A stretch of DNA of 64,000 nt from Bacteriovorax sp. Seq25_V (GCF_000447795.1 NZ_AUNI01000017.1:1-64000); one strand, 5' to 3'; positions 25,968 to 34,698 are shown, counted from the first letter of the stretch. Notes: a model not told the origin generated them from the sequence alone. Translations and numbers: made by a program.

Positions 25968-27644
25968 TTAATATGCCTTATTTTTGATAAAATATTTGAA
26001 ATGATGTGGGTTTCTATAACGATAAAACTTTTTTGATTTAGGAGAATATACAAATTCAGTGCCTTTCATACGAAGAACTTCATATTGAGTACCGGCTGAA
26101 GTGAAGTTGTAAAGGTATGTGTAGTTTGAATTTTTATAGTGAAGCTGAAGTTTTTTATCACCAGAAATACGTGGACCTGGTCTCTCTTCAATTGGAGTGT
26201 AGTCATCCCAAACTTGGGCCATATCAATTCGTCCCAACATGGAAGCACGAGAAAAATATCTTGTTGCAAGAAATCCAGGATCTGGACTTCTTAAAAGATT
26301 AAGAGCAAGTGAAAGATTTTTTCTTCTCAAACGACTAGCTGTTTTACTTTGGTCCGCACAGAAAATTCCGCGACTAGCTGGAATAAAAAAATATGTGAAC
26401 GAGAATTCGCCCTGCTTAAACAATACATTTAACCATGTATATTTATCAATATTTTTAATATTCAACTTTTGAAGTTTGGAATGAAGAGGCTCTGAGGCAT
26501 CTATTTTATTGTATTCATTAATTGCTAAGCGATTCATTACAACTTTTAAAACATCACTCCTCTCTGTCCCTGCATCATCATCAAGTCTACCAACCTCATG
26601 AAATAGAATTGTTTCAAGAGCAAAGAGCTGTCGATAAAGTAAATCCTTTTCACTCCAAAACTTATAAACCTCTGCCTCTTTCTCATAAATATAGTCAGAG
26701 AGTGCATACCTTGCTTTATTCTTATCATTGAACATTTTCTTAAAGAAATCCTTCTTATTCTTCTGCTGGACAAGAAGATTAGAGTAGTAAGTGACGTCTT
26801 TATCTGTCTTAGCAACCCAGTTTGAAATACGCGATAAAATTTCTCGTTTACCACCCCTCAAAACCCCATCGAGAGTATCAAAGAGTGATTCAATATCATA
26901 CGCAAGGTTATTATCAAGAAAGGAATCAGAATAAGAATCAATTCTCATATAGATCGAATCAATTAATGCCCTTAGAGTAAGATCAGATCTTCCTTTGTCT
27001 CTATTAACTGCACCTTCCTCTACAATTTTTCTTAAAAAGTAAGCTCTATTGGCCTTTCTTTTTCCTTCTTCAGTATCACTAGACTTGTACTTATCATATT
27101 CGGCACGAAGATAAAAATGATCAACAGGAAACTCAAAGGACTGAAGATAGTACATACTAACGATAAACTTCTGCAGTTTTTCTATGAATTCATGTGTATG
27201 AGACTTTGCTTCCTTAACGAGATTCTTTTTCTTATCGAAAGAGTTTTCAAGATAATAGCGGTGATAAACACTTCGAAGTTTATCTAGGTCTTTTTGCAAA
27301 ACCTTCAAAGATATTAAATATGTTCTAAGTGATTTTTCATTTTTTAACTTCTCCTCAACCCCTTTGAGCCAAGTGAGTCGTTTTTGGAGCATTGGAAGAT
27401 GATCTGAGATTGTTTCTGAATCTAAGTTTCCATCTTTTAAAAAAGGAATGTATATTCCATCTCCAAGAAAACTTTTATAAAGCTCTTCGGCATGCTTATC
27501 TGTCCCACCTGAACAAAGTTTTTTAAACGATTGCTTATGCATTCGCATATACTTGTTAATTGCGTTTCGATCCGTTATTTTTTCAAGAACGTCAGCATAA
27601 ACAAAACTATTTATAAACAGAGAGCTAATTAATATTTTTAACAA
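25968..27644 (-). CDS. Secreted protein with SleB-like cell-wall hydrolase motif
   Basis: The best start is TTG at 27644: GGAG lies seven bases ahead and it gives a clean signal peptide, MLKILISSLFINSFVYA, cut before D. The earlier in-frame TTG at 27665 has no ribosome site. The 558-residue protein is helical and Lys/Glu-rich in its first 320 residues. Residues about 345-450 (ALETILFHEVGRLDDD, VMNRLAINEYN, KQGEFSFTYF) resemble the SleB/hydrolase_2 layout with its catalytic Glu, though the match is loose. Start overlaps the mpl stop by 20 bases, linking it to murein metabolism. It could be a prey- or self-wall lytic enzyme; that is inference. Confidence 0.55.
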   Translation of the reverse strand: MLKILISSLFINSFVYADVLEKITDRNAINKYMRMHKQSFKKLCSGGTDKHAEELYKSFLGDGIYIPFLKDGNLDSETISDHLPMLQKRLTWLKGVEEKLKNEKSLRTYLISLKVLQKDLDKLRSVYHRYYLENSFDKKKNLVKEAKSHTHEFIEKLQKFIVSMYYLQSFEFPVDHFYLRAEYDKYKSSDTEEGKRKANRAYFLRKIVEEGAVNRDKGRSDLTLRALIDSIYMRIDSYSDSFLDNNLAYDIESLFDTLDGVLRGGKREILSRISNWVAKTDKDVTYYSNLLVQQKNKKDFFKKMFNDKNKARYALSDYIYEKEAEVYKFWSEKDLLYRQLFALETILFHEVGRLDDDAGTERSDVLKVVMNRLAINEYNKIDASEPLHSKLQKLNIKNIDKYTWLNVLFKQGEFSFTYFFIPASRGIFCADQSKTASRLRRKNLSLALNLLRSPDPGFLATRYFSRASMLGRIDMAQVWDDYTPIEERPGPRISGDKKLQLHYKNSNYTYLYNFTSAGTQYEVLRMKGTEFVYSPKSKKFYRYRNPHHFKYFIKNKAY

Positions 27645-29034
27645 AATCACTGCTCCACAGGCCAAGTGTTGAACTATTACTCATAATCAGATGAACATTT
27701 TCTTCCGATGATAAATTATCAATTCTCTCCTGGAGTTGTTCAAGTGTTACAACGCAACTAGCATCAATACCAATCTCATTGAGTTTTGTGGCTATTAACG
27801 TCACATCAAGATCCCCTCGCCCCTTTGCTGTCGTTGGCCTTTGGGGTTTTATTATCGTTACCGCCGATGCATCTTTTAATGCATCAAGGAACTCTGCTTG
27901 AAAAATATCACTACGTGCAGTCGCAGACCCTGGTTCGAGAAATGCATTAATTTTTTTCTTAGGATACTTTGTCATTACTGCTTTTAAAGTTTCTCTAACA
28001 GCAGTCGGATGGTGAGCGAAATCATCAATAACAATTGCTCCCCTGTAATTTCCTCTTTCCTCTTGTCTTCTTTTCACAAGAAGAAGCTCTGTGATGGCCA
28101 AATCGATCTTTTCTTTCGTGTAACCAAGCTCTTTTGCAATGAGAATAATCGAACTTAGATTATATATATTATGATCACCAACCAGGTTAGTCTTATAAGT
28201 CTCATCTTCTATTTTAAATTTAGTTCCAAATTCAGATCTTTCGATAATATGAATATTATTCTTTCCGTAATCCTGCCACTGATGTTCCTTGAACTGGTCT
28301 CGAAGGGAAATAATTTCTGGCCAGTCGCTACATCCGACCACCGAGCTTGTCGTGGGAATTACTTTTCTAAACTCATTTTTTATATCTTCAATCGAAGAAA
28401 AGATATCTGCATGATCAAATTCTAAAGATGTGATGACAAAGTGATTTACACAATATGACTGAAATTTAGAAAACTTCTCAAAGTAAGCGCTATCATATTC
28501 ATCAGATTCGATAAAAAACAGAGGACTTTTACCGAGGCGAGAGGGAGGTCTTCCATTCATCACTCCACCAATAAGATAACCACAGTCCTCACCTAATTTT
28601 TCAAAAACCTGAGCCCCAAGATAAGTCGTTGTTGTTTTTCCATGGGTACCAGATAGACCAATTACAGTTTTCTTATTTAAAACGAGAGCACCGATTGCGG
28701 TAGGAAAAGATGTAAATGGTACTCCGCACTCTTCAATCTCTCTCGCCTCTTGGCTACTTCCAGCGACTACATTTCCAACAACGATGAGATCATATTCACT
28801 TTTAAGTGTTTTGAAATCAAGTTTATCAATGGTAGAAATTTTAATACCTGAGGTTTCTAGGTAGGTACTCATTGGAGGGTAGAACATACTATCAGCACCG
28901 GAAACATCAAAACCAGCTTCTTTTAGAAGACAAGCTGCTGCCCCCATACCTGTACCACATATTCTATAGAAAAATATTTTTTTAAATGATTTATTTTGTA
29001 GATTTTTAAAATCTAGGTAGTTTGATAAATTCAT
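27625..29034 (-). CDS. mpl: Murein peptide ligase Mpl (MurC paralogue)
   Basis: A 469-residue Mur ligase. The N-terminal Rossmann motif GTGMGAAACLLKEAG, the ATP loop GTHGKTTTT and the Mpl-type FFIESDEYDSAYFEKFSKF segment are clear, with the C-terminal FAHHPTAVRETL stretch. Mpl joins recycled L-Ala-gamma-D-Glu-meso-diaminopimelate to UDP-N-acetylmuramate, so it returns murein peptide to synthesis. The ESDEYD form argues for Mpl rather than MurC. Its Shine-Dalgarno lies in the stem of a long hairpin (see separate entry). Confidence 0.9.
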   Translation of the reverse strand: MNLSNYLDFKNLQNKSFKKIFFYRICGTGMGAAACLLKEAGFDVSGADSMFYPPMSTYLETSGIKISTIDKLDFKTLKSEYDLIVVGNVVAGSSQEAREIEECGVPFTSFPTAIGALVLNKKTVIGLSGTHGKTTTTYLGAQVFEKLGEDCGYLIGGVMNGRPPSRLGKSPLFFIESDEYDSAYFEKFSKFQSYCVNHFVITSLEFDHADIFSSIEDIKNEFRKVIPTTSSVVGCSDWPEIISLRDQFKEHQWQDYGKNNIHIIERSEFGTKFKIEDETYKTNLVGDHNIYNLSSIILIAKELGYTKEKIDLAITELLLVKRRQEERGNYRGAIVIDDFAHHPTAVRETLKAVMTKYPKKKINAFLEPGSATARSDIFQAEFLDALKDASAVTIIKPQRPTTAKGRGDLDVTLIATKLNEIGIDASCVVTLEQLQERIDNLSSEENVHLIMSNSSTLGLWSSDFVKNIN

Positions 29035-29087: not shown

Positions 29088-32000
29088 TTATATGCCCATA
29101 AACATTTTAATTACATCTTTGCACGTTTTAGTCGCATTAACTGAAGTGATACCTTCCGGATTAATCATATTCCACCACTCTTTAGTTGCTTCAAGCTTCA
29201 AGTTTGCTTGTTGATTCTTTTGTAGCTCAGATGGAGAAAGTGATCGACCAATCTTTCCTTCCACTGTTGTTTTAAATGAAGCAAAGTCACTAGTACTTTC
29301 TAAGTGAATGATCTCGTCAGGAAATACGATTAAAGGAACCATTTCTTCAACTTCGTGATAACCGGAAACTAGATTTAAAAGGTTTCTTCTCTTATCAATT
29401 TTCATCGCAGCTATTCTTGGAGGATGTCCCGCAAAACTTTGAGCAACACTCATAACCGAAGTTGATAAGAATGGAGATCCTACTGGCTCATGGCTATGGC
29501 CTTTGAAGATCGCTGCAAGAGACTGAAAGTCAATTGGCATTTCGTTCTGAGCCTTCTTAGATAGTTTCTTGCCAAAGAAAGTTTTAAGGGAACGAAGTCT
29601 TCTTGTATAGCTTCCCTGATTTTTTGTTAGCAGCTTTGACATTAAAAAATAACCGCCATTATCAGTTTCACGAACAAGGTCGTCAGCAACACCTCTAAAT
29701 GTCATCATATAATCAGCTTCATTTGTAGCCGGCTTTTCGATAGCATCAAGCCATCTTGTCCATGCAGCAATTTCAGTTGGCTCCATCTCTTCCCACGGCA
29801 TATAGGCTTCGACAAGTTCAACAACTTTCTTTCTATTATTTGAAGCAATATAGTCATCTAACTTTAAGTCCTCTGCTTCGAGTTTCGTATGAAGAGTTTT
29901 CCATCTCGCAGCAATTCCTTTACGAGTTTTTCTCTCGGCTTTTTCTTCCTTACTTACTGCCAGAGAGATTTTTGCAGCATGTGCCTTTCTTGCCGCTATA
30001 TATTCTGTAATTTTTGGATCTTGAACATTTTGTGAATTAAAATAATTTTGAAGTGCATCCATTGCATCCACTTCTGCCCTTGCATTCATAAGCTTACTTC
30101 GCTTAGATCCATACTCAGCATTAAGAGCAACCTCGGCCCAGAATATTGGATGTTTATAAAAGCCGCTAGATTCAACAATTTGTTTTAAATGTGTCATCTC
30201 TTCAAGAATAACTAGAGGATTTTTCCACCCTTCAGCACTGAAGTTTACTTCAATAATAAGACCTTTTTGATTATCAAATTTCGGAACAATCTCAGCCAGT
30301 TTGCCATCAGTAAAACTTGCATTTTTTGAAACTTGAATTTGCGCCAAAAAATCTTCCTGTGTTCCCTTCGCAGTTAATCTTCCATTTAGATTTGTAACTG
30401 TTGTTTCAAAAGCTTGGATTGCATCAACCCCAGTCATTGACTTCAGTTTTGCAACTGTATTGACCTCATCTAATAAATTCTTAGTTGTTCCATCTGGAGA
30501 GAAAAAGGCCAGATGACAGAAATTCTGCCCATCACAGACATCTGATGATGTCGTCGTTGGTAGAAAATTATATTTTAGATTTCCGTTATAAGTAACTTGA
30601 GCGTCAAGCCCTGCACTTCTAAATGCTGCCTGAGAATAGACATCAACAAGATAGTCGCTATCTTCAACTAGAAATTTTGGAACAGTAACAACATCACTCT
30701 CCGGAGGACCACGAACCAGATTAACAGTAGTGAATTTATCTACATCCGAGACTGCCCCAGCAAGCTCCTCCATAGCTTTCTTGTATTCCTCTAAAACCTG
30801 ATCAGAAGCTGCATGAAAATTGATAGCAAGAATATCACCTTTAGGGTTCCACTTTCCTTGAACAAAATCTTTGCTAATTGAAATTTTTGGTGTCACACCG
30901 GTTTCTTGAAGTTTTCTTCCTACATAACTAGAAACTTCACTCGCCAATGCAAGTCTTTTCGTAAAATAGTGATCTGAGAAGCTATCAACAGATTCAGCAA
31001 ACTGTACTACTTCTTCTGCGGTACTCACATTTGAATCTTTTAAAGCAGAGAAAACATAGTACTTAAAAGTATTACCCTTCCCTGCTAAAGCAGCATCAAT
31101 GAGATCTCTTAGCTTAGATGCACTTGATTGTGGTAGATCTGCTGTTTTAGGAATTCCAATATTATCTCTATCAAATAAAGAGATAAGAAGTTTGTTTAAG
31201 GCATTTCTTCTTTTTGCACTTGTTGCACTCGCTAGAGTTTCACCTTCACTTTTTAGTACATCAGAGATGAGAAGGTATGCTCTCATGTGATCATCACTAG
31301 AGTTTAAAATCTCTCTTAAGTGGCTTGTTTCAACTTCAACAAAATCCGAAACTTGCTTCGACTTTTGAAGCCATTCTTCCGTTTCTTGAAATGGAGAGAA
31401 AACGTGATCAACAACACCACCAATTTTTGCTCCATCAACTTGAAGGACATCTCCATTAAGCTTCTTGTTTGTATCACCAATACGAGCATGAGTTGGTATT
31501 ACAAGATCCCCAACTTTATACCCTTTCTCAGGAAATGCTCCAGCAGTTCCAATATATGTAATATCTTTGTGCCCAGTGTTTTTTAGAGCGCGTGCAAGTG
31601 GAGCGATCTCATCTCCCCAACTATTAGCAACAACTCGCCATACAATATTTTCGCCTTCTTTGTTTTGGAACGCGATATCTGACATGCTAATAACAAAATT
31701 ATCATAGTCATACTTTTTAAAACTTGGAGGTATAAATCCTGATTTCTCAGCTTTCGCCTTTACTTTTTCGAAGGCTACTTCAATTTGTTTTTTATTTTTA
31801 AAAATATCAAAGTCCTCATAGTTTCCAGACTTTAAAAATTTTACAAAAGCATCTCTATCTTTTTCAACGATCTGGCTTAACACTGCATCAGGATCGCTAT
31901 CGTACAAATTCTTAAGAGCTCTTACTTTCCAAAGAATATCAACAGTTCTCTCAATTGCACCTTTTTGACCGATAATTACTCGATTGGCCTTTGGAAGATG

Positions 32001-32933
32001 TTTCATAATTCCAGAAAGCTCGTCTTCCATCATTTTATGAGATTTATCAACATCTCCATAAATTCTTACTTTATTTTTTAAGTTACCATCTTCAAGCTTT
32101 GAGAGCCCGAACTGAAGCAGCAAGTGATTTAGTCTATCTTTTCCACCAATACTTGTAATCGCATAACGATATGTATCTTCACCTGGATATTGAACGATGT
32201 AAATTTTGTTATAGTTGTTCGCAAATGGACGAACCTCTTTAACTACCGAAGCACCATTTTCAGACAAGTTCTTTAAAAATTCCCTCGAATTCTCAAGGTG
32301 AAAATCAATTCCACGTCCACTTTCTGTTGCTTCCCAAAACACAGCTCTCGTGGTTCTATTGGAAATATAAAGCCCTGAGTCTAGTGTTAGATCATCTGGC
32401 TTGAAATTAATATCTGCTATAACCTCTTCAGTCGTTGGAGCCTTTGTTGTTAATGCTGATTTATCCTCAGTCTTTAATTTTGTATCTAAGAGAGTAAACC
32501 CTTCATTTAATTTATTCTTAAAGAAATTATATCCCCAGACATACTTGCTCTTAGCGAGAGAAGGTTTAGCACCTAATTTGTCTTCGATGATTTCATAAAC
32601 TATTCCATCATAATTTTTTGCATCAAAAATTCTCGAATCAGAAGAAAATTTTTCAATTAGATAATCAATCTTAGACTGTTTTAAAGCCGAAAGAGATGAT
32701 TCATCAATATTCTTTCCAAACCCATTAATATACTCACCGATATAATAATCCAGCTTATCAATAGCAAGTAAGACTTCAAGACGATCAAGACTCTCGCTAC
32801 TCGCTGGAAATCTTTCTGCACGACTTTCCATCGTAGTCAGGTAACCATAATTAGCTGGTCCACTGAACATCGAACATGAAGTCAGAATAAGGGCAAAAAT
32901 AAAGGCATTAATTTTTCTAAACATAGTCTTCAT
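29088..32933 (-). CDS. Large multidomain lipoprotein: nucleoside-phosphorylase-like plus ART-like domain
   Basis: A 1281-residue protein with a lipoprotein signal (FALILTSC, Cys20). Residues about 430-540 look like a nucleoside phosphorylase/nucleosidase fold (YIGTAGAFPEKGYKVGDLVIP, FVEVETSHL). LEEMTHLKQ (910-918) is a weak EExxH metal-site candidate. The C-terminal 250 residues match the neighbouring lipoprotein and carry ADP-ribosyltransferase-like features in order: FRG (Arg1080), FLSTS (1155-1159), and EVE (Glu1194, Glu1196) before a hydrophobic VFP strand. R, STS and ExE are the marks of arginine-type ARTs. It could act on NAD in the periplasm or on the surface. Enzyme activity is inferred; homology between the two neighbours is plain. 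Start may be ATG 32933 or 32924. Confidence 0.7.
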   Translation of the reverse strand: MKTMFRKINAFIFALILTSCSMFSGPANYGYLTTMESRAERFPASSESLDRLEVLLAIDKLDYYIGEYINGFGKNIDESSLSALKQSKIDYLIEKFSSDSRIFDAKNYDGIVYEIIEDKLGAKPSLAKSKYVWGYNFFKNKLNEGFTLLDTKLKTEDKSALTTKAPTTEEVIADINFKPDDLTLDSGLYISNRTTRAVFWEATESGRGIDFHLENSREFLKNLSENGASVVKEVRPFANNYNKIYIVQYPGEDTYRYAITSIGGKDRLNHLLLQFGLSKLEDGNLKNKVRIYGDVDKSHKMMEDELSGIMKHLPKANRVIIGQKGAIERTVDILWKVRALKNLYDSDPDAVLSQIVEKDRDAFVKFLKSGNYEDFDIFKNKKQIEVAFEKVKAKAEKSGFIPPSFKKYDYDNFVISMSDIAFQNKEGENIVWRVVANSWGDEIAPLARALKNTGHKDITYIGTAGAFPEKGYKVGDLVIPTHARIGDTNKKLNGDVLQVDGAKIGGVVDHVFSPFQETEEWLQKSKQVSDFVEVETSHLREILNSSDDHMRAYLLISDVLKSEGETLASATSAKRRNALNKLLISLFDRDNIGIPKTADLPQSSASKLRDLIDAALAGKGNTFKYYVFSALKDSNVSTAEEVVQFAESVDSFSDHYFTKRLALASEVSSYVGRKLQETGVTPKISISKDFVQGKWNPKGDILAINFHAASDQVLEEYKKAMEELAGAVSDVDKFTTVNLVRGPPESDVVTVPKFLVEDSDYLVDVYSQAAFRSAGLDAQVTYNGNLKYNFLPTTTSSDVCDGQNFCHLAFFSPDGTTKNLLDEVNTVAKLKSMTGVDAIQAFETTVTNLNGRLTAKGTQEDFLAQIQVSKNASFTDGKLAEIVPKFDNQKGLIIEVNFSAEGWKNPLVILEEMTHLKQIVESSGFYKHPIFWAEVALNAEYGSKRSKLMNARAEVDAMDALQNYFNSQNVQDPKITEYIAARKAHAAKISLAVSKEEKAERKTRKGIAARWKTLHTKLEAEDLKLDDYIASNNRKKVVELVEAYMPWEEMEPTEIAAWTRWLDAIEKPATNEADYMMTFRGVADDLVRETDNGGYFLMSKLLTKNQGSYTRRLRSLKTFFGKKLSKKAQNEMPIDFQSLAAIFKGHSHEPVGSPFLSTSVMSVAQSFAGHPPRIAAMKIDKRRNLLNLVSGYHEVEEMVPLIVFPDEIIHLESTSDFASFKTTVEGKIGRSLSPSELQKNQQANLKLEATKEWWNMINPEGITSVNATKTCKDVIKMFMGI

Positions 32934-32942
32934 TCCAATAAA

Positions 32943-34622
32943 TTAAAAAAATGATTTAATAATATATAAACAGTTATTCATTTCAGGCATTTCATCGATA
33001 ACAGTATTAGTTACCTTTACGGTGTCATATGATGGCGTATTATTTCCTGTCATCTTATTCCACATTTTTTTAAATAGCCCTGGCGTCTTTTCTACTTTCT
33101 TAGTCTCTACAATAGTTTTTGTTTTTGGGGCCAGATATGCTTTACTTGAATTATTAAATTCTGCAGAACGTTCTGTAATTGATTTAATAATTTCCTCAGC
33201 TTCATTCTCACCATATTCTGCGATGATTTTCTTTTTAAAAGTATCGTGTATATAAGTATTTACCGCATCAGAAGAGCCTCTGCCATTAATGCTCTCATCA
33301 TAAAAAGCGACCATTTCTTCAGGGAAAGAAATTAAAGAATGAAGATACTCCATTTCTCCTTTGAAAGATGTCATCTGGTTAAATAGTAAAATTTCTGGAT
33401 CAATAAGAAACGCTCCCATTGCTCTTGAGCCATCTTTATCTGCAGCATCACCACTGATACTAAATCCGAATCGATATCCAGTCGCAAAGTCAGTTGTAAA
33501 TGAAAGGAATGGACTCCCTTGGGCCTCAATCGAGTGCTGCTTCATCATTGTTGTTAAACGAGAGCTTGCATTCATTTCACTTTCTACATTAAATGGATTT
33601 TGAGAGATTTTCTTATCAAACATTGTTTGTAATGAACGTAATCTTCTATTCCAAGTTCCTTGATTTCTAGTGATAATCGTAGACATTGCCGCGAGACGGC
33701 CTTCTTTTACGGCCTGATCATACTCCATCACTGAACCATTAACGATTTCTGGATAAAGTCTATCTCCATAAGTTCCCCTGTAGACAAGAACTCGATCTTT
33801 AATTGGCGCAGGATTTTTAATCTTATTTAAAACTTGATCCCAAAACATATGCTCCATTGGAGTCATTTGCTCACGGGGCAAATATTTTTGTAACAAATCA
33901 ACAACTCCTGCACGATCGTTCTTTTGCAGCAGTGTACGAAGTTGACCATCATCAGCAGCGCGATCAAGTTTACTCATAATATCCTTACGAGCTTTTTCCT
34001 GTGCCTTAATCTCTTTCCTCTTGGCAGCGATCTTTGCATCAATGGCTTCAAGGTCATCATTAAGTTTTTCAATAAGATCTACAAACTCAGTTTTTCCCTT
34101 CATTGATATCTGTCTAAGTCTAATTAAAGCTCTTTGTGACTCAAGATGACCATTTCTCGCATTAAACATTGTTTCAAAAAATGAATATGGTGTTGGATAT
34201 ATTTTTTGATCGTTTATAGCATTTAGAAAACTAAGGATCTCTTGACTTGCAAAACTACTATGAGCACTTTTAGTACTTGATCGGTAGACAAGGATGGAGT
34301 GTGTTCCATTTGGTTTAATATTTACATCAATTGCAAAATCTTTTCCATCTGGTAACTCAGTATCAATAAGTTCAATAGCAATCGCTCTCGTCTCACTGCT
34401 ATTAAATGCTCTCGCCTGATACTTTGTATTGATTTGCGCAATCTCTTTTTCAAGACTAATTGGTGAATCTTCAGTACCATGTGTTGATACATAGGATTCA
34501 AAATGAACGATACCTTGATGCTCTTTATAAATTAAAGCTGCGTCCTCCGAAGCAATATCTCGCTTTGGGGAAATACAAGATGCCATTAAAAGAAATAGCA
34601 CAAAAATATTAAAATATTTCAT
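32943..34622 (-). CDS. Lipoprotein with ART-like C-terminal domain (paralogue of neighbour)
   Basis: A 559-residue protein with lipobox LMASC (Cys16). A helical, coiled-coil-prone part (residues 175-245) follows a unique N-terminal region. Residues about 230-440 match the downstream gene: YLPREQMTPMEH with YMPWEEMEPTEI, TRNQGTWNRRLRSLQTMF with TKNQGSYTRRLRSLKTFF. ART-like marks are YRG (Arg282), FLSFTT (372-377) and EME (Glu423, Glu425). A third element, STS, is changed to SFT, which may weaken activity. A Lys/Thr-rich tail ends in CLYIIKSFF. The gap to the next gene is nine bases, so they form an operon. Confidence 0.65.
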   Translation of the reverse strand: MKYFNIFVLFLLMASCISPKRDIASEDAALIYKEHQGIVHFESYVSTHGTEDSPISLEKEIAQINTKYQARAFNSSETRAIAIELIDTELPDGKDFAIDVNIKPNGTHSILVYRSSTKSAHSSFASQEILSFLNAINDQKIYPTPYSFFETMFNARNGHLESQRALIRLRQISMKGKTEFVDLIEKLNDDLEAIDAKIAAKRKEIKAQEKARKDIMSKLDRAADDGQLRTLLQKNDRAGVVDLLQKYLPREQMTPMEHMFWDQVLNKIKNPAPIKDRVLVYRGTYGDRLYPEIVNGSVMEYDQAVKEGRLAAMSTIITRNQGTWNRRLRSLQTMFDKKISQNPFNVESEMNASSRLTTMMKQHSIEAQGSPFLSFTTDFATGYRFGFSISGDAADKDGSRAMGAFLIDPEILLFNQMTSFKGEMEYLHSLISFPEEMVAFYDESINGRGSSDAVNTYIHDTFKKKIIAEYGENEAEEIIKSITERSAEFNNSSKAYLAPKTKTIVETKKVEKTPGLFKKMWNKMTGNNTPSYDTVKVTNTVIDEMPEMNNCLYIIKSFF

Positions 34623-34629
34623 TCGTTAT

Positions 34630-34667
34630 ACTCCTATCCGACAATAATTATCGGACTTTTAAGGAGT
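34630..34667 (-). promoter_or_regulatory. Hairpin pairing the Shine-Dalgarno of the ART-like lipoprotein gene
   Basis: Read on the minus strand, ACTCCT and AGGAGT (outer arms, 34662-34667 and 34630-34635) enclose a second stem TCCGA/TCGGA (34651-34655 and 34637-34641). AGGAGT is the Shine-Dalgarno eight bases before ATG 34622. The structure could hide the ribosome site. The inner stem might also be the end of the upstream gene's transcript. Confidence 0.4.
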
Positions 34668-34698
34668 AAACTTAATTAATTATGACAAATACTTGATT

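Follow-up and report, generated by a model that had tools for sequence, protein, structure and literature searches.

A nucleosidase-fold and ADP-ribosyltransferase lipoprotein pair in Bacteriovorax sp. Seq25_V, possibly exported to act on prey

The locus

The DNA analysed is a 64 000-nucleotide stretch of Bacteriovorax sp. Seq25_V (GCF_000447795.1, NZ_AUNI01000017.1, positions 1–64000; hereafter the window). Two adjacent genes on its minus strand, here called A and B, occupy positions 29088–34622; B lies upstream of A with a spacing of 9 nt, and an open reading frame (ORF) scan of the window found no ORF of at least 100 amino acids in the gaps around them. The initial annotation had described two neighbouring lipoproteins of 1281 (A) and 559 (B) amino acids, and the ORFs have these coordinates and lengths, each with a lipobox (LTSC and MASC, respectively). 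Sequence and model agree in placing an ADP-ribosyltransferase (ART) domain of the R-S-E class in both proteins. That annotation was right about the ART domain of A and missed that two thirds of the protein consist of a nucleosidase-fold protein; the history of the gene pair and its fusion, an attack-phase promoter and a cysteine tail also go beyond it. Relatives by sequence are Bacteriovorax and Halobacteriovoraceae genomes and the host is therefore a marine Bdellovibrio-like predator, as had been supposed. The features are listed in Table 1.

Table 1. Features of the A–B locus, numbered from the first nucleotide of the window
Feature	Position	Strand	Description	Evidence
Gene B	32943–34622	−	559-aa exported lipoprotein with ADP-ribosyltransferase domain	ORF, alignments, AlphaFold2 model (pLDDT 89)
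Gene A	29088–32933	−	1281-aa exported lipoprotein, nucleosidase-fold protein fused to ART domain	ORF, alignment
B signal peptide	34575–34622	−	Lipobox MAS-Cys16	Sequence; lipoboxes in most Bacteriovoracaceae homologues
A signal peptide	32874–32933	−	Lipobox LTS-Cys20	Sequence
B zincin-like N-terminal region	34053–34490	−	Residues 45–190, without metal motif	Weak VIA matches to zincins, Z 3.3–3.9
B ART domain	33213–33815	−	Residues 270–470	Conservation, AlphaFold model, VIA
B ART residue R282	33777–33779	−
B ART residue S374	33501–33503	−
B ART residue E423	33354–33356	−
B ART residue E425	33348–33350	−
B C-terminal cysteine tail	32946–32984	−	NCLYIIKSFF	Low model confidence
A nucleoside phosphorylase/nucleosidase (NP-I fold) domain	31161–32027	−	Residues 303–591	Foldseek, VIA, conservation, Pfam
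A EExxH	30189–30203	−	Residues 911–915; would be a degenerate HExxH	Region aligns with zincin-like part of B
A ART domain	29238–29732	−	Residues 1068–1232	Alignment, conservation
A ART residue R1080	29694–29696	−
A ART residue S1157	29463–29465	−
A ART residues E1194 and E1196	29346–29354	−
A C-terminal cysteine tail	29091–29132	−	TCKDVIKMFMGI	Sequence
Attack-phase (FliA/sigma-28-like) promoter	34649–34675	−	TTAAG-N16-CCGATA	Exact match to published consensus

The ADP-ribosyltransferase domain

Residues 196–438 of B were aligned with residues 987–1209 of A at 34% identity (E = 4e-24), far above chance, as expected from the strong shared identity first noticed. The motifs of A are FRG (1079–1081, Arg1080), FLSTS (1155–1159, Ser1157) and E1194-V-E1196, in accordance with the residues originally named, and their equivalents in B are R282, S374, E423 and E425. 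All 76 homologous domains examined have the Ser and the second Glu, and 75 have the Arg and likewise 75 the first Glu (with one Gln), even though overall identity to B drops to about 16–20% among family members. Three members (L123, L124 and L125) have lost the NQG-x-x-RRLRSL block and retain R, S and ExE, the pattern expected of an active site. In a 69-sequence alignment G283, S374, E425 and P434 are invariant and R282 and E423 are at least 90% kept. The ARTT loop (X-X-aromatic-X-X-E/Q-X-E; T-S-F-K-G-E-M-E in B) has its aromatic residue exactly placed in 51 of the 76 domains and one residue nearer in 12 more, A included.

The AlphaFold2 model of B, calculated from 69 sequences, has a pLDDT of 89 and a pTM of 0.84. 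Residues were located in it by strand position: R282 ends strand 278–283, S374 lies within strand 372–376 and E423/E425 stand just before strand 426–429. These positions and the ARTT loop agree with the published description of the R-S-E layout, in which the Arg is on strand 1, the Ser on strand 2 and ExE after the ARTT loop (PMC7827354). By strand position, neither outcome that the initial annotation named as refuting an ART came about: the model is ART-like, with R282 and S374 on strands 1 and 2 and E423/E425 at the start of the strand after that loop. Members of the class have the Ser within S-x-S/T and the catalytic Glu of E/Q-x-E at core strand 5, as the B model and the family alignment do. 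With VIA-align, rows 1–34 were all ART-superfamily structures (Z up to 7.6 over 119–148 residues). The best match was cholera toxin A1 (Z 7.6, 144 residues, 4.2 Å), and other top rows were the Rhs toxins TreTu/TreX (7.2), heat-labile toxins (LT), PltA, pertussis S1, Scabin, pierisin and Tpt1. A Z below 8 is weak by itself; because these matches are taken together with the invariant residues, B very probably has the ART fold suggested at the outset. Foldseek ranked Certhrax/lethal factor first for B, but with values (E 0.15, TM 0.12–0.14) that do not speak for kinship.

When B and the ART profile were compared with Pfam, NCBIfam, PADLOC, PHROGs and PDB sequences no ART family was matched, and there were no relatives in curated families; a weak match to NCBIfam TIGR03034 (16.7 bits, cut-off 156), present in none of 37 relatives, was taken as chance. 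In Bacteriovorax sp. DB6_IX (L063:473–4280) gene A is disrupted within the part that encodes the ART domain, where the reading frame shifts near residue 1177; this could reflect either an error of sequencing or true loss.

The nucleosidase domain of A

A model of A residues 22–827 was calculated from 33 sequences (pLDDT 87), its residues 282–570 corresponding to A 303–591. This segment has the NP-I nucleoside phosphorylase/nucleosidase fold (Foldseek probability 1.00, E 3e-6; VIA Z 20.1 over 204 residues), and Pfam PNP_UDP_1 was matched in 26 of 33 homologues of the nucleosidase unit (best 1.1e-8). Conserved in 32–33 of the 33 are W439-G-D-E442, Y460, E533-x-E535, S557-D558 and R575; E533, E535, S557 and D558 are invariant (33/33) and R575 is found in 32. 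We take E533-x-E535 to be the ribose-binding E-x-E and S557-D558 the base-side S-D. The top sequence matches are methylthioadenosine/S-adenosylhomocysteine (MTA/SAH) nucleosidases (MTAN), and the invariant Y460 occupies the position at which phosphorylases carry their phosphate-binding Arg, a residue that MTANs also lack there; together these suggest that hydrolysis is likelier than phosphorolysis.

A zincin metalloprotease was also considered for the N-terminal region of B and the corresponding region of A: A has EExxH in place of HExxH, B has no such motif and the zincin fold match is weak (Z below 4). A further protein with a nucleosidase-like domain was seen at L064:8588–12607 (minus strand); it has 1339 residues, an N-terminal signal-like segment and a radical-SAM-like domain (just under the cut-off), and no ART domain.

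Distribution and gene history

An ART profile built from 23 members was searched in 369 Bdellovibrionota genomes and matched 53. Strong ART matches were obtained in 50 genomes and strong nucleosidase matches in 50, with both in 48 and each alone in two (Fisher p 3e-55, phylogeny ignored); the pair is thus found in other Bdellovibrionota, where the initial annotation had proposed to look for it. Most Bdellovibrionaceae have separate overlapping genes, nucleosidase first, with an overlap of about 22 bp; genus g14 and UBA6153 have separate genes in reversed order; and the two units are fused in the genus of the window and in others. Within Bdellovibrio the nucleosidase unit is present in 13 of 24 species, all 13 with ART, the two being on different contigs in one genome (G176). 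That the two units are gained and lost jointly, lie side by side in two orders and can be fused is good evidence, at the level of sequence, that nucleosidase and ART share a function.

In the tree the A-type and B-type ART domains form separate supported clades. The two genes are paralogues, as first described, though by this tree old ones, and a recent tandem duplication was rejected. The locus stands in conserved synteny beside housekeeping genes (Mpl-like ligase, metK, ppdK) and not in mobile islands; a mobile-element origin was rejected, since neither viral contigs nor phages or plasmids gave a match. Five B-type genes stand in tandem in genome G018, with a further one beside the nucleosidase gene of that genome. 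The genome of the window itself encodes a second B-type ART lipoprotein (G000:C20:195441–197078; L004:7436–9088), with no nucleosidase partner adjoining.

Promoter and export signals

The Bdellovibrio attack-phase promoter has the consensus TTAAG-N16-CCGATA (PMC3627812). A 27-bp exact match precedes B and ends 26 nt ahead of its ATG; the box was spotted after the fact, the consensus itself being published and independent. Exact matches number one in the window against 0.04 expected and seven in the whole genome against one in the reversed control, and the score of the window promoter exceeds those of all 385 other sampled gene starts. Of the Bacteriovoracaceae loci, the first 17 listed have FliA-like sites (score at least 16) ahead of their leading gene.

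The −10 box lies in an inverted repeat, TCCGATAATTATTGTCGGA (window 34638–34656, minus strand), that extends to the ribosome-binding site of B, and similar CCGA...TCGG repeats precede several homologues (L051, L053, L062 and L052). Another of the seven exact promoter matches (G000:C21:365425–365451; L228) stands before an exported protein whose sequence, inspected by eye, seems to resemble RHS/YD repeats.

Members from Bacteriovoracaceae mostly have lipoboxes, those from Bdellovibrionaceae ordinary Sec signal peptides. Judged by these signals, export is a conserved trait of the family and the lipid anchor is not; the latter was rejected as a defining trait, so that of the envelope-tethered pair originally envisaged the export stands and the tether does not.

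Proposed role and alternatives

We give about even probability to A and B being a pair of exported NAD-using enzymes that are made in the attack phase and act on prey; the pair may represent a weapon against prey that has not been described so far. The support comes from the domains, their residues, the export signals, co-inheritance and the promoter sequence, as read from sequences and models. A and B would be made in the attack phase, exported via Sec and most likely aimed at prey, and on contact or inside the bdelloplast they would meet prey NAD+. The ART domain would then transfer ADP-ribose to a prey macromolecule, for which an arginine of a protein would fit best because ExE is combined with an aromatic ARTT loop, while the nucleosidase domain would split a nucleoside or nucleotide at an N-glycosidic bond. 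Their joint effect would be to disable the prey or to release nucleotides from it; because both proteins leave through Sec, the cytoplasm of the predator itself would be unaffected.

The cytoplasm of the prey stays compartmentalised from the predator (PMC2797640), and for the question of how periplasm-invading predators reach and disarm it the pair offers concrete enzymes. Its variation between Bdellovibrio species provides natural comparisons with and without the pair. The open-access literature searched, which does not cover all journals, yielded no description of an exported nucleosidase–ART fusion and none of a part played by ARTs when Bdellovibrio preys.

Several observations weigh against an enzyme pair directed at prey. 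By Foldseek alone no match of B was significant (best E 0.15), and the VIA Z stays below 8. Neither A nor B is reached by any Pfam or NCBIfam ART family, which also makes the family new at the sequence level. A-type domains often have an ARTT loop one residue short. The attack-phase promoter is missing upstream of Bdellovibrionaceae loci, and about 10 of the 24 Bdellovibrio species are without the pair, which predation as such therefore does not require.

The main alternative, which we consider unlikely, is nutrient salvage: the ART-fold domain would be an NAD glycohydrolase with a nucleosidase as partner, and the pair would degrade NAD+ and nucleosides of the prey once these are released into the bdelloplast, the parts being imported by the predator. 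A nucleosidase domain next to an NAD-binding fold would suit such a function, as would the match of the A domain to MTA/SAH nucleosidases with the invariant Y460 at the phosphorylase Arg position, and there are toxins of the ART fold whose only activity is the hydrolysis of NAD(P) (Tne5; PMC13285283). A pure NADase would not, however, need the transfer-type ExE and aromatic ARTT loop that are strongly kept, and the promoter is of the attack phase, not the growth phase.

Somewhat less probable than salvage is self-modification, in which the enzymes would remain in the envelope of the predator and ADP-ribosylate proteins of its envelope or surface during the switch from attack to growth. The lipoboxes of Bacteriovoracaceae and the synteny with housekeeping genes are consistent with such a role; the soluble Sec-exported forms in Bdellovibrio argue against it, as does the presence in a single genome (L055) of as many as five ART copies in tandem, which recall effectors under arms-race expansion. 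To our knowledge, moreover, no NAD+ is to be expected in the predator periplasm.

It is improbable that the pair is used, in the manner of polymorphic toxins, against competitors such as rival predators. Rhs and type VI secretion system weapons commonly carry ART toxins, and the nearest folds include those of the Rhs toxins TreTu/TreX, but no immunity gene stands beside the pair (there being no ORF of at least 100 amino acids in the gaps and the neighbours being syntenic housekeeping genes), no Rhs, VgrG, PAAR or other delivery domain was found, and phages, plasmids and viral contigs gave no matches. Very improbable is a degenerate ART fold without catalysis, retained as a binding or scaffold domain: the non-significant Foldseek match and the other degenerate-looking part of A (EExxH) would allow it, but nowhere in the family is conservation stronger than at the active-site residues.

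Comparison with known systems

The ART domain, as modelled for B, shares its fold (VIA Z 6.0–7.6) and the placement of R, S and ExE with R-S-E mono-ADP-ribosyltransferase toxins (cholera toxin A1, LT, PltA, pertussis S1 and TreTu/TreX). The family differs from these toxins in sequence (8–18% identity in the VIA alignments), in the extra NQG-RRLRSL block between R and S, in the use of N-terminal Sec/lipobox signals without A/B subunits, Rhs or VgrG parts, and in its nucleosidase partner, either fused or encoded alongside. With Tne5 and other NAD(P) glycohydrolase effectors of the ART fold it has in common that fold and a bacterium-against-bacterium setting; Tne5, with a reported Lys/Glu site (PMC13285283), lacks the R-S-ExE set that is invariant in the present family.

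The nucleosidase domain resembles NP-I phosphorylases and MTA/SAH nucleosidases (DeoD, MTAP and MTAN) in fold (Z about 20) and in its E-x-E, S-D and R residue types; unlike them it is exported, lies inside an 800-aa protein and has the invariant WGDE and Y460. In Detocs a PNP-fold domain is the effector, an ATP nucleosidase of phage defence (PMC11249213); Detocs is intracellular, whereas A is exported, with no kinase or response-regulator partner adjoining and no PADLOC match.

Cysteine tails and exported neighbours

The ART and nucleosidase proteins both end in a short cysteine-plus-hydrophobic tail (CSKVF and CEAVLL are Bdellovibrio examples). The tails have low confidence in the models and so are probably flexible; in B the tail Cys551 is the only Cys other than that of the lipobox. 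Some non-homologous exported neighbours also have the tail: an IucA/IucC-type lipoprotein, an amidoligase and a 441-aa Bdellovibrio protein. In samples of about 0.4 and 0.8 Mb, used in place of the whole genome, from the window genome and G018, every lipoprotein matching the tail pattern came from these loci. A genome-wide tail signal in Bdellovibrio was rejected, the DNA pattern C-S/T-x-V/I-F-x-stop not being enriched over the reversed control (6 versus 13 and 11 versus 8); in frame it was matched only in ART and its 441-aa neighbour, and the tail is thus no tag for export in general. The motif had been derived from the sequences before it was counted, which makes these statistics exploratory.

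One reading of the tail is a shared delivery or docking signal, another is partner binding. More widely, the exported cytoplasmic-type enzymes of predatory Bdellovibrionota (ART, nucleosidase, IucA/IucC-type synthetase and amidoligase), A and B among them, might form a cohort whose cysteine tail is recognized by a machine delivering into the prey cytoplasm, a tentative idea that we regard as doubtful.

Exported lipoproteins with an IucA/IucC synthetase domain and a cysteine tail lie beside or near ART and nucleosidase genes at L054:6206–7879 (minus strand), L070:11492–13180 (plus strand) and L139:4158–5840 (minus strand), the Pfam match being above the cut-off in L070 and L139. The amidoligase is a 1029-aa lipoprotein (L058:2016–5105, plus strand; Amidoligase_2, 26.3 bits, cut-off 22) with the tail SCSRAIKLFFQ, encoded two genes upstream of a nucleosidase–ART fusion. 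The exported Bdellovibrio protein (441–448 aa; L120:5742–7067, L121:6840–8186 and L122:8373–9698) has no Pfam match, adjoins divergent ART genes and, like the ART proteins, ends in CSKVFQ/CSQVFN. In the window a 565-aa protein without a Pfam match and apparently exported is encoded at 25968–27665 (minus strand); it is kept between metK and the Mpl-like ligase near the locus in several genomes (L051, L054, L057, L070 and L138).

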